Shown: in pieces, positions 14,390 to 37,443 of the stretch
How the letters are laid out: the number at the start of each line of letters is the position of its first letter
Numbering within the stretch: position 1 is the first letter of the stretch
DNA from: Methanoplanus limicola DSM 2279
GTDB taxonomy: Archaea; Halobacteriota; Methanomicrobia; Methanomicrobiales; Methanomicrobiaceae
DNA: 64,000 nucleotides
NCBI RefSeq assembly: GCF_000243255.1
Contig: NZ_CM001436.1
Location: forward strand, 780,077-844,076
Reading direction: 5' to 3'
Notes under the pieces: generated by a model
Databases searched by the model: none
What the model was told of the DNA's origin: nothing
The model's input: only the letters and a program-made list of their open reading frames with translations
Translations under genes and position numbers: made by a program

Positions 14390-15676
14390 ATGTCCGGACC
14401 ATTGCTTCAGGTTGCACTTGACCTGACAGAATTAACAAGAGCGATAGAGATTGGAAAAGAAGCCCTTGCAGGAGGGGCTGACTGGATAGAGGCAGGAACT
14501 CCTCTCATCAAAAGTGAGGGAATGGAGGCTGTGAGAAGGCTGAAAGCAGAATTTCCCGGGACTGAGATCGTTGCGGATATGAAGGTCGCCGATACAGGCG
14601 GAATTGAGGTCGAGATGGCAGCCAAAGCAGGAGCTACAGTCGTATGTGTCCTTGCTGAAGCGGATGACTCGGTAATTGAGGAGTCTGTCCGTGCAGCACG
14701 TCTCTATGGCATAAGAATAATGGCTGACCTCATCAATACAGAAAATCCGGTTAAGAGAGCCAGAGAGCTTGAAAAACTGGGTGTGGACATCATAAACGCC
14801 CATGTGGGAATTGACCAGCAGATGACCGGAAAAAGTCCGGTTGACCTGATAAAAGAGATCTCAGGGGAAGTATCACTGCCTGTCGGCGCAGCAGGCGGAC
14901 TCAATGCAGAATCAGCCGCAGAAGCGGTAATCGCAGGTGCAGACATCCTCCTTGTCGGGAGCAGCATCACAAAATCGGCAGATGTACGGAAGGCCACAGA
15001 GGAGATCAGAAAGGCAATTGATGACCCGAAACTCCCTGCTAAAACAGCAAAAAGCCATGATGATGAGATAAGGGATATTCTCATGCAGGTGTCAGCACCG
15101 AATGTAACGGATGCAATGTTTCGGAAAGGTGCAATGTCAGGCCTGATCTCACTATGCGGCGATGTCAAAATGTCAGGTAAGGCAATAACGGTTGAGACTG
15201 TCGCAGGAGACTGGGCAAAACCTGTTGAGGCAATTGACATTGCAGAAGAGGGTGATGTCATTGTGATAAACAACGGAAGGGCCACCCATGTTGCACCCTG
15301 GGGTGAACTTGCAACACATTCTGCAAAGAACAAAGGCGTTGCAGGCATTGTAATTGACGGCGCTGTCAGGGATGTTGATGATATAAAAAAGATCGGAATT
15401 CCGGTCTTCTCAACCGCAGTATCACCCAATGCAGGCGAACCAAAGGGATTTGGTGAAATAGGTGCAGAGATCGTCTGCTGTGGGCAGACTGTCAGAAACG
15501 GGGACTGGCTTATAGGGGATGAATCCGGCGTTGTCGTGATACCAAAGGAGAGGGCATATGAGATTGCAAGGCGTGCCCTTGAGGTCAAAAAGCATGAAAT
15601 CAGGGTCCGCGAGGAGATTCTTCAGGGAAAAACCCTCTCAATTGTTATGGAACTGAAACGCTGGGAGAAGAGGTAG
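14390..15676 (+). CDS. Bifunctional hexulose-6-phosphate synthase / RraA-like protein
   Basis: 428 residues. Residues 1-205 are 3-hexulose-6-phosphate synthase, an OMP-decarboxylase-fold barrel with the metal/catalytic motif DMKVAD (D63, K65, D68) and phosphate loop VGAAGGLN. Residues about 220-428 are an RraA/HMG-aldolase-like domain (APNVTDAMFR, VIDGAVRDVDD, PVFSTAVSPNAGEP). This fusion is known in methanogens. In archaea lacking the oxidative pentose phosphate path, the synthase runs in reverse to give ribulose 5-phosphate and formaldehyde. The task of the RraA part is uncertain. Confidence 0.92.
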   Translation: MSGPLLQVALDLTELTRAIEIGKEALAGGADWIEAGTPLIKSEGMEAVRRLKAEFPGTEIVADMKVADTGGIEVEMAAKAGATVVCVLAEADDSVIEESVRAARLYGIRIMADLINTENPVKRARELEKLGVDIINAHVGIDQQMTGKSPVDLIKEISGEVSLPVGAAGGLNAESAAEAVIAGADILLVGSSITKSADVRKATEEIRKAIDDPKLPAKTAKSHDDEIRDILMQVSAPNVTDAMFRKGAMSGLISLCGDVKMSGKAITVETVAGDWAKPVEAIDIAEEGDVIVINNGRATHVAPWGELATHSAKNKGVAGIVIDGAVRDVDDIKKIGIPVFSTAVSPNAGEPKGFGEIGAEIVCCGQTVRNGDWLIGDESGVVVIPKERAYEIARRALEVKKHEIRVREEILQGKTLSIVMELKRWEKR

Positions 15677-15995
15677 ACAGTTACGGATACCCCCTCAGGA
15701 TTCCCCAAATAACAATAATTCAGATTTCCCGGAGTAATCTCCACAATATTGCCACAGCAGCAAAAAGGTAAGTTCTAAATTATCTGAAATATCAATACTA
15801 CTGGTGTTATTCACTATAACGCGAATAACGCCCATGAGGGAGGCGGCTCAGTACACACACCAATTGCTGCCTTTCTCATGAAAATTCTGAATTTTAAAGA
15901 TGGTTACGACTCTTTTAAACAGACATTCAATCCATACTGCAAAGTTTAGAGATTTTTCATAAGATATTACAGGCATCAGAACCAATAATCCTGAA
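15677..15995 (+). other. 319-base gene-free gap holding a hairpin cluster
   Basis: No ORF is supported. The first 120 bases show nothing clear apart from a weak TATA-like CTAAATTAT at 15775-15783. From 15803 to 15919 there are four inverted repeats in a row (separate entry). The last 75 bases, AT-rich, lead to the dCTP deaminase-family gene. Confidence 0.6.
15803..15919 (+). ncRNA. Candidate structured RNA (four consecutive hairpins)
   Basis: Hairpin 1 (15803-15832) pairs GGTGTTATTC with GAATAACGCC. Hairpin 2 (15833-15880) pairs CATGAGGGAGGCGGC with GCTGCCTTTCTCATG, 15 pairs around an 18-base loop. Hairpin 3 (15881-15895) is AAAATTC-T-GAATTTT. Hairpin 4 (15893-15919) pairs TTTAAAGA with TCTTTTAAA with one bulge, and shares three bases with hairpin 3, so 3 and 4 exclude each other. 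All four non-Watson-Crick pairs in hairpins 1 and 2 are G-U if read on the plus strand but A-C on the minus strand, which points to a plus-strand RNA. A weak TATA at 15775 would start it at hairpin 1. It may be a small RNA or the leader of the next gene. Confidence 0.45.
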
Positions 15996-16424
15996 ATGAT
16001 AATATCCGGTTATGAGATTATTAGCAGGGTTAATTCAGGAGATCTGACTCTTGAGCCATATTCCAAAGATTCACAGCAGCCTGCATCATATGACCTGAGG
16101 GCAGGCGAGGACTATATCCTGAAGAAAGGCGAATGCACTCTTGTCCATTCCATGGAGAAGGTAGGACTTCCGGCAGACATCGCAGCAACCCTGATGTGCA
16201 GGTCGTCATTCGGAAGAAGAGGTGTTTTAATCGGCGGAGGATACGTTGACCCGGGATTCCGCGGCAATCTCACACTATGCCTTGTCAATATGGGGCCTGA
16301 GGATGTTCCGCTTAAAAAAGGTGAGAGATGCGTCCAGATAATAATGCATGAGGTCAGAGACGGAAAAATCCTCTATGACGGACGGTATCAGGACAGTGAA
16401 GGGTCAGTTGAAGCGAGAAACTAA
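15996..16424 (+). CDS. dcd: dCTP deaminase/dUTPase-family protein
   Basis: 142 residues, shorter than usual Dcd (about 180-200). Family motifs are present: the Q/SYDLR strand (ASYDLRAGEDY), MCRSSFGRRG and GGYVDPGFRG. In dCTP deaminases the strand after this carries a catalytic glutamate (E. coli ..VLEFYN..); here the equivalent LTLCLVN has cysteine (C95). The aspartate of dUTPase motif 3 (D85) is kept. So dUTP hydrolysis is more likely than dCTP deamination, though annotation pipelines will call it dCTP deaminase. It sits alone, convergent with the next gene, behind the hairpin cluster. Confidence 0.82.
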   Translation: MIISGYEIISRVNSGDLTLEPYSKDSQQPASYDLRAGEDYILKKGECTLVHSMEKVGLPADIAATLMCRSSFGRRGVLIGGGYVDPGFRGNLTLCLVNMGPEDVPLKKGERCVQIIMHEVRDGKILYDGRYQDSEGSVEARN

Positions 16425-35234: not shown

Positions 35235-36656
35235 ATGGATAGCAGTCCGGCAAAATATCTCAGAGATGAAACCCTCCTTTTAGCTGTCATCTCCATCGGC
35301 GTCTTCATGGACGGGCTTGACGGTGCGATTGTAAACGTCTCACTCCCGCAGATTGCACAGGATTTCGGAGCGGAAATCGGACTGGCGTCCCTTGTAATTA
35401 CTGCATATCTCATCTTTCTGAGCGGACTGATGATAACCTTCGGGAAAATAGCCTCATACAGAGGTGCAAAAAAGATATATCTCGGTGGAATTGCGATATT
35501 TACAGCATCATCACTCCTCTGTGCACTCTCCACAGGCATTGAGATGCTTATAATTTTCAGGTCTCTTCAGGGTATCGGGGCGGCAATGATTGCACCGACA
35601 GCCATAGGCATCGTAGCAGCTGAAATCCCGGAAGAGAGAAGGGGAAAATCACTCGGAATTCTTGTCGCCGCATCATCATTCGCCTTTGCACTTGGCCCTG
35701 TGGCAGGCGGAATTCTGACAGAATATCTGAGCTGGCACTGGATATTTCTGATAAATATCCCAATCGGAGTGGCCGCAGCAGCCCTGTCCATGAAATACAT
35801 TCCGAAATCAGAGAATATTCCGGGTGATAACCCTAAACAAAGAGTTAATTTCGATTACGCAGGATCACTGTTATTTCTCATATCAGTCGGAATATTGATC
35901 ATAACCCTTGGAATGGCAGGAGAAGAAGGCCCCCTGTCACCATCCGTGATAATCTCACTGGCATTATGCGCAGCTCTTTTTTACCTGTTCTACAGAAGAG
36001 AAAAATCTGCTGCGGACCCTGTACTGGACATTAATATCTTCAGAATTCCGGCATTCAACAGCTCAACCGCAACCTATATGCTGATTATGGGTGCATTTGG
36101 AGGCGCGGTTTTAATGCTCCCTTTTTATTTTCAGTACATCAGATCCTGGTCGCCTGCAATGGCAGGACTTGCACTTCTGATACCGTCAGTTGTAATAACC
36201 ATATTCAGCCCGCTCGGCGGAATAGCTGCGGACAGATATGGTGCGCGTGTTGTCTGTATCATATCCGGAATTCTGGCCACATTAGGGTTTTTGCTTACTG
36301 CATTTTATTCAGAAACATCAACAATAATCTATATTGCAGCAACACTTCTCCTTCTCGGACTGGGCTGCGGCCCGGTTATGAGCGCGGGTGCATCAGGAAT
36401 TATCTCATCCGCACCAGCTGAAAAAAAGGAGATTGCATCGGGCATCATGAGCACTTCAGTCTATCTTGGAACTGCAATAGGGACAGCAGCTTTCACTGCC
36501 ATATTCAGTCTGTTTACCAGAGAAGCGGGCAGTTCAGTGAATCCCGGAACTGAGGCATTCATAGAGGGATTCATGGCCTGTTTCATAGCCGGAACTTTAT
36601 TCTGCCTCCTTGCAACCCTCCTTGCCTTTAAGCAGAGAACAAAAAGGATTACTTAA
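35235..36656 (+). CDS. MFS exporter, DHA2 (EmrB/QacA) type
   Basis: 473 residues with fourteen predicted helices. It shows MDGLDGAIVNVSLPQIAQDFG (motif D1 of 14-helix exporters), GKIASYRGAKK (motif A) and GPVAGGILTEYLSWHWIFLINIPIG (motif C). Proton-driven export of drugs, lipids or sugars; the substrate is unknown. It lies between the FAD enzyme and the glycosyltransferase. Confidence 0.9.
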   Translation: MDSSPAKYLRDETLLLAVISIGVFMDGLDGAIVNVSLPQIAQDFGAEIGLASLVITAYLIFLSGLMITFGKIASYRGAKKIYLGGIAIFTASSLLCALSTGIEMLIIFRSLQGIGAAMIAPTAIGIVAAEIPEERRGKSLGILVAASSFAFALGPVAGGILTEYLSWHWIFLINIPIGVAAAALSMKYIPKSENIPGDNPKQRVNFDYAGSLLFLISVGILIITLGMAGEEGPLSPSVIISLALCAALFYLFYRREKSAADPVLDINIFRIPAFNSSTATYMLIMGAFGGAVLMLPFYFQYIRSWSPAMAGLALLIPSVVITIFSPLGGIAADRYGARVVCIISGILATLGFLLTAFYSETSTIIYIAATLLLLGLGCGPVMSAGASGIISSAPAEKKEIASGIMSTSVYLGTAIGTAAFTAIFSLFTREAGSSVNPGTEAFIEGFMACFIAGTLFCLLATLLAFKQRTKRIT

Positions 36657-36732: not shown

Positions 36733-37443
36733 ATGGAACCCAGAATTTCGGTTGTAATACCAACCTACAACGAGGAAGGCAATATTACTGCCTGCCTTGA
36801 ATCACTCTCAAAACAGACAATTCCAAGAGAGGAATACGAACTTATTGTTGTTGACGGCGATTCGGCAGACAGAACGCGGGAATTTGCCGAAAAATATGCT
36901 GACCGGGTGTTCATCCAGAAGAGCAAAAGGGTTGGCGGTGCGAGAAATGACGGTGCAGAGGCTGCAAAGGCCAAAATACTTGCAACAACCGATGCAGACT
37001 GCCTGATCCCTGAAAACTGGCTTGAAACTATTATCTCAATCTTTGAAAATAACCCGGATACCGTTCAGCTGTATGGGACTGTAGCTCCGATAGAGCCGGG
37101 GATAAAGCATAAAATATCGCTATTTCTCGCCAATGTCTTCTCAGGACTTGGATATTACACCCACACCCTGTATTATACACTTGGGTGTAATACCGCATTT
37201 CGGGCAGAGGCATATCACTCTATAGGTGGATATAAGTGCATTGACGCCGGAGATGACCTGGAAATCGCACAGAGAATGAGAAAAATCGGAAAAGTCAGGC
37301 TGAGCACTAAAATTAAGGTTCGGTTTTCTATGAGAAGATATGTTCAGTTCGGAACACTCAAATCACTCTACATATGGATCTATATTGTGATTAAAGGCGG
37401 TAATTCAGCCAAATACACATATGCAAGGCAGAAATACAAATAA
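36733..37443 (+). CDS. Family 2 glycosyltransferase
   Basis: 236 residues. A GT-A fold: VVIPTYNEEGNITACLESL at the N-terminus, VVDGDSADRT, and the metal-binding TDADC (DXD-like) near residue 88. A conserved GCNTAFRAEAYHSIGGY and ED-like GDDLE motif follow (acceptor/catalytic region). One weak hydrophobic segment near the end may touch the membrane. It would transfer a sugar from a nucleotide donor to a lipid or glycan; the sugar-nucleotide cluster at 53-60 kb could supply donors. Confidence 0.9.
   Translation: MEPRISVVIPTYNEEGNITACLESLSKQTIPREEYELIVVDGDSADRTREFAEKYADRVFIQKSKRVGGARNDGAEAAKAKILATTDADCLIPENWLETIISIFENNPDTVQLYGTVAPIEPGIKHKISLFLANVFSGLGYYTHTLYYTLGCNTAFRAEAYHSIGGYKCIDAGDDLEIAQRMRKIGKVRLSTKIKVRFSMRRYVQFGTLKSLYIWIYIVIKGGNSAKYTYARQKYK

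Follow-up and report, generated by a model that had tools for sequence, protein, structure and literature searches.

The closest described systems are two intergenic, structured sRNAs of the methanogen Methanosarcina mazei. sRNA154 is a stable, verified and nitrogen-regulated RNA with two stem-loops and known targets, and one of its loops carries an anti-RBS sequence that pairs with ribosome-binding regions (PMC5867862). sRNA162 folds into three stem-loops over ~190 nt, has experimentally mapped ends and targets, and gives BLAST matches only in close relatives (PMC3510493). The candidate described here resembles sRNA154 in being an intergenic methanogen element with two stable stem-loops, and sRNA162 in its structured stem-loops and narrow distribution. 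It differs in being known from sequence alone, with the likeness to sRNA154 drawn from the published description and an RBS match limited to CACC. A literature search found no sRNA study for Methanoplanus.

The window, the whole 64-kb stretch of DNA that was analysed (G000:C1:780077-844076), belongs to a single-contig archaeal genome of 3.2 Mb. The candidate lies on the plus strand between two genes of the same orientation. Upstream is a fused hexulose-6-phosphate-synthase/RraA-type (HPS/RraA-type) gene (14390-15676), named from its own sequence, whose stop codon is 126 bases before the first stem; downstream, 116 bases past the end of the stems, is the start codon of a dCTP deaminase-family gene (15996-16424). 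A tRNA/tmRNA search of the window found none.

Folding models indicate that, as RNA, this stretch almost certainly forms two strong hairpins set back to back. Stem-loop 1 (15803-15832) has a 10-bp stem in which GGTGTTATTC (15803-15812) pairs with GAATAACGCC (15823-15832) around a 10-nt loop, while stem-loop 2 (15833-15880) has a 15-bp stem in which CATGAGGGAGGCGGC (15833-15847) pairs with GCTGCCTTTCTCATG (15866-15880) around an 18-nt loop holding ACACACCAAU. The 10-bp and 15-bp stems of the initial annotation are borne out: they abut with no base in between and all 25 pairs are standard on the plus strand, 21 being Watson-Crick and the four departures all G-U, as it had claimed. Together the two stems have a minimum free energy of -37.3 kcal/mol (z -7.4; 0 of 200 shuffles equal or better) and pairing probabilities of at least 0.99. 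The 117-nt interval 15803-15919 gives a fold z of -6.4 on the plus strand versus -4.0 on the minus strand, its raw folding energy being exceptional only given the low G+C content. In a scan for hairpins of at least 14 pairs with loops of at most 25 nt, stem 2 was the longest uninterrupted plus-strand stem in the window. The minus strand holds two more uninterrupted 15-bp hairpins with G-U pairs, at 36612-36652 and 36787-36821, which lie 135 bases apart.

Four consecutive hairpins had originally been read in this interval, the last two overlapping and mutually exclusive. Only stems 1 and 2 stand. Stems 3 and 4 (15882-15919) fold at chance level (-4.7 kcal/mol, z -0.5; 62 of 200 shuffles equal or better) and the counterpart region in the second genome of the genus, G001, folds differently; the small hairpins are not conserved and a switch-like fold built on them is not supported. 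The region that contains them (15881-15926, plus strand) is a probable 3' end region and, with its weak hairpins and a TCTTTT tract at ~15911-15916, a candidate termination zone in which CTCTTTTAA is kept in G001. The TCTTTT tract may mark the 3' end of the RNA; terminator scoring at the locus returned no terminator-like site and no strong terminator.

Comparison within the genus covers two genomes, the window genome (G000) and G001. A DNA search found one orthologous site, in G001, flanked by the same gene pair, and the locus is single copy in both genomes. Conservation across it is uneven. The first 69 bases after the HPS/RraA-type gene are 54% identical, excluding a mobile insertion in G001, and the stem arms are identical at 46 of 50 aligned positions. 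Within the RNA, conservation is lowest in loop 2 taken overall (11 of 18). This loop differs in length by 2 nt, which leaves no conserved reading frame across it; a small protein was rejected on these grounds.

Both stems are kept in G001, again with 25 of 25 pairs standard. A pair-by-pair count, in which the outermost pair of stem 1 was placed by hand, gives five paired-site differences: G-C to G-U, U-A to U-G (twice), A-U to G-U and G-U to A-U. The 5' arm of stem 1 is invariant and its 3' arm changes only from G-C to G-U and from U-A to U-G, and stem 2 carries the three other pair-preserving changes. All five keep pairing on the plus strand through wobble changes only; on the minus strand such G-U pairs would read as A-C mismatches. 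When five random substitutions were simulated, full pair preservation occurred in 0.4-2.8% of cases (about 0.004-0.03) at 50-80% transitions and in 8% when all were transitions. Read from the alignment, these changes support selection on a plus-strand RNA. The initial annotation had taken strand-specific wobble as the mark of such selection and had proposed a stand-alone RNA, and both ideas hold in part: every change preserves plus-strand pairing and both stems persist in G001, the one close relative in which the annotation's refuting outcome could have appeared, but the changes are one-sided wobbles, no two-sided covariation being seen because the genus sample comprises two genomes. On balance, the two-stem feature is probably real as RNA.

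Immediately before stem 1, the segment 15770-15802 (plus strand) is identical in G001 at all 33 positions. It opens with the TATA-like AAGTTCTAAATTAT (15770-15783), confirming that such a box precedes the stem, and continues as the spacer to stem 1. Placed at about -33 to -20 relative to 15803, the box fits the usual archaeal TATA-to-start spacing, from which a putative promoter with a transcription start near 15803 can be proposed. Two tRNA genes (loci L142 and L143) likewise have AAGTTCTAAA upstream. Gibbs sampling of tRNA genes for a promoter model did not settle on one motif, and thus only this common string was used. With one mismatch allowed, AAGTTCTAAAWT is expected to match about once by chance in the window, so a string of this type proves nothing alone; the invariance of the block, as a comparative observation, is the stronger point. 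A second block, at 15951-15995 (plus strand), lies directly upstream of the dCTP deaminase-family gene, is identical in G001 at 42 of 45 positions and, judged by this conservation, is likely that gene's own promoter.

Outside the genus the structure was not recovered. A covariance model built from the two sequences and run against 232 genomes of the order matched only the two genus loci at E <= 0.1, with a few matches at E 0.2-0.7 taken as noise. A class-level search drew the same number of genomes (232), probably the same set, and the other 230 genomes of the order or class gave no convincing match. The covariance search therefore recovers a site with both stems in G001 and none beyond the genus. 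The gap measures 62-128 bases in relatives that share the upstream gene (G002, G013, G019, G022 and Methanomicrobium records), and ~1.2-1.3 kb separates the two genes in G008 and G015. Four of the short syntenic gaps were folded and showed no stable structure, which, with model matches confined to the genus, places the origin or arrival of the structure in the Methanoplanus lineage. The HPS/RraA-type neighbour of the deaminase gene is itself particular to the Methanoplanus/Methanomicrobium side; most other genera of the order have an opposite-strand tRNA-like gene next to the deaminase gene (GGATCCAGCGGGAATCGAACCCGCGTCC on the deaminase strand; L033-L052).

Known RNA families did not account for the locus. 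Rfam, searched at gathering and relaxed thresholds, returned nothing relevant. An H/ACA guide RNA was rejected, there being by eye no ACA after either stem and no internal pocket, as was a C/D box guide RNA, for which no C box (RUGAUGA) could be seen; neither had an Rfam match.

The site in G001 carries a further sequence at the base of stem 2, an element of ~70-75 bases (L022 about 1322-1390/1396; G001:C1 about 1234721-1234795) that begins with GTCAACTACCCACGACTGAAGTCGTGGG. It recurs in G011, G006 and G026, each time with an unchanged left border, and the G026 copy adjoins a gene with a TnpB-type domain, which identifies it as an IS200/IS605-type end. In the window genome this site is empty; in G001, stem 2 continues to form despite the insertion. 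The right end of an IS200/IS605 transposon, or its TnpB omega-RNA, is a further described system for comparison, the G001 site carrying such an end at the base of stem 2. The two stems were rejected as part of an omega-RNA because they lie outside the element, whose border in G001, G006, G011 and G026 starts at GTCAACTACCC; the element's interior faces away from the stems in G001, and the window copy has no element at all.

These observations can be used to weigh what the stems are. A cis-acting leader of the deaminase gene, whether attenuator or switch-like, was one of the readings offered by the initial annotation. The stems lie on the same strand, 116 bases before the start codon, and are conserved together with the gene in the genus. 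We nevertheless regard a leader as distinctly unlikely: the gene has its own promoter-like block at 15951-15995, no mutually exclusive structure is conserved, and the gene is present in all 40 relatives, of which those sharing the upstream gene mostly have 62-128-base gaps without stems. Stable hairpins are frequent at RNA 3' ends, and this, together with a position on the same strand 126 bases past the stop codon, would fit a structured element in the 3' UTR or at the mRNA end of the HPS/RraA-type gene, serving in end protection or as a processing site. Such an element would not be expected to follow an invariant TATA-like block, nor does it suit the jump from 54% identity beside the gene to 100% right before stem 1, or the lack of stems in syntenic relatives; it is an unlikely explanation, if one to keep in mind.

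Two further readings place the function, if any, in DNA. The stems could be a decayed hairpin-type mobile element, a MITE or another structured DNA insertion from the genus ancestor that was kept by chance and has no RNA function. That other genera lack them in this gap agrees with such an origin, as does the abundance of IS200/IS605-type ends in these genomes, one of them inside the G001 site. However, each of the two genomes has a single copy of the locus, both stems lie beyond the border of the G001 element, and neither strand-specific, pair-preserving changes nor an invariant upstream block is expected of a relic, which makes this origin rather unlikely. Stem 1 is near-palindromic as DNA (GTTATTC..GAATAAC), as it would be if the two dyads were protein-binding operators, but a DNA-level site does not predict that every asymmetry, in either species, should be a G-U on the one strand; we consider operators very improbable.

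An independently transcribed intergenic sRNA of this genus, extending from 15803 to ~15880 (3' end perhaps 15915-15926), is the best reading given the separate conserved block upstream of the deaminase gene, and we give it a little better than an even chance. A separate transcript is also likelier than a leader because the stems and the deaminase gene are each preceded by a conserved block of their own, the one before the stems being invariant, and because that gene is universal among the relatives while the stems are confined to the genus. We infer transcription, the RNA ends and a trans-acting function. Transcription would start near 15803 from the invariant TATA-like box, and the RNA would open with stem-loop 1 stacked on the stable stem-loop 2, the stems giving stability and the second displaying the constant ACACACCAAU loop.

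By analogy with Methanosarcina sRNAs, the loop would most likely pair with mRNAs, for example at GGUG-containing ribosome-binding regions. The stretch CACACCAAT (15856-15864, plus strand) is single-stranded and invariant in both genomes, which makes it a candidate interaction site. Its CACC is able to pair with a Shine-Dalgarno GGUG or with the RNA's own 5' UGGUGU. A loop-complement target search gave no candidate, and no exact complementary 10-mer at start sites was common to both genomes; away from the locus, the sole 10-mer common to both falls within a conserved coding sequence and, with codons read by eye, appears identical rather than complementary to the mRNA. Within the RNA, ACACACCAAU is complementary to the invariant 5' UGGUGU over 6 bp (duplex -8.4 kcal/mol). 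A simple switch was rejected since forcing UGGUGU:ACACCA into nested pairs makes the fold 22 kcal/mol worse. There is a slim chance that a new Methanoplanus-only sRNA family is at hand in which the 5' UGGUGU pairs either with its stem 1 partner or with the loop ACACCA, in a cis pseudoknot or between two molecules, and so switches or dimerises.

Archaea commonly have structured sRNAs restricted to one genus, and for this reason the general interest of the proposed sRNA is modest. Should it prove to be transcribed, Methanoplanus would have a clear candidate sRNA gene, undescribed so far, and the transposon end at the foot of stem 2 in G001 provides a ready natural experiment. That insertion is a solo IS200/IS605-type end with hairpin CCCACGACTGAAGTCGTGGG, located after TTTTCAC (minus strand). 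It looks like a MITE-like minimal element, and a similar solo copy is found in G006 (C1:536746-536820). The TnpB zinc-ribbon domain family has 22 matches in G001, 5 in G000 and 22 in G026; G001 and its sister G000 show a large recent difference in transposon load.
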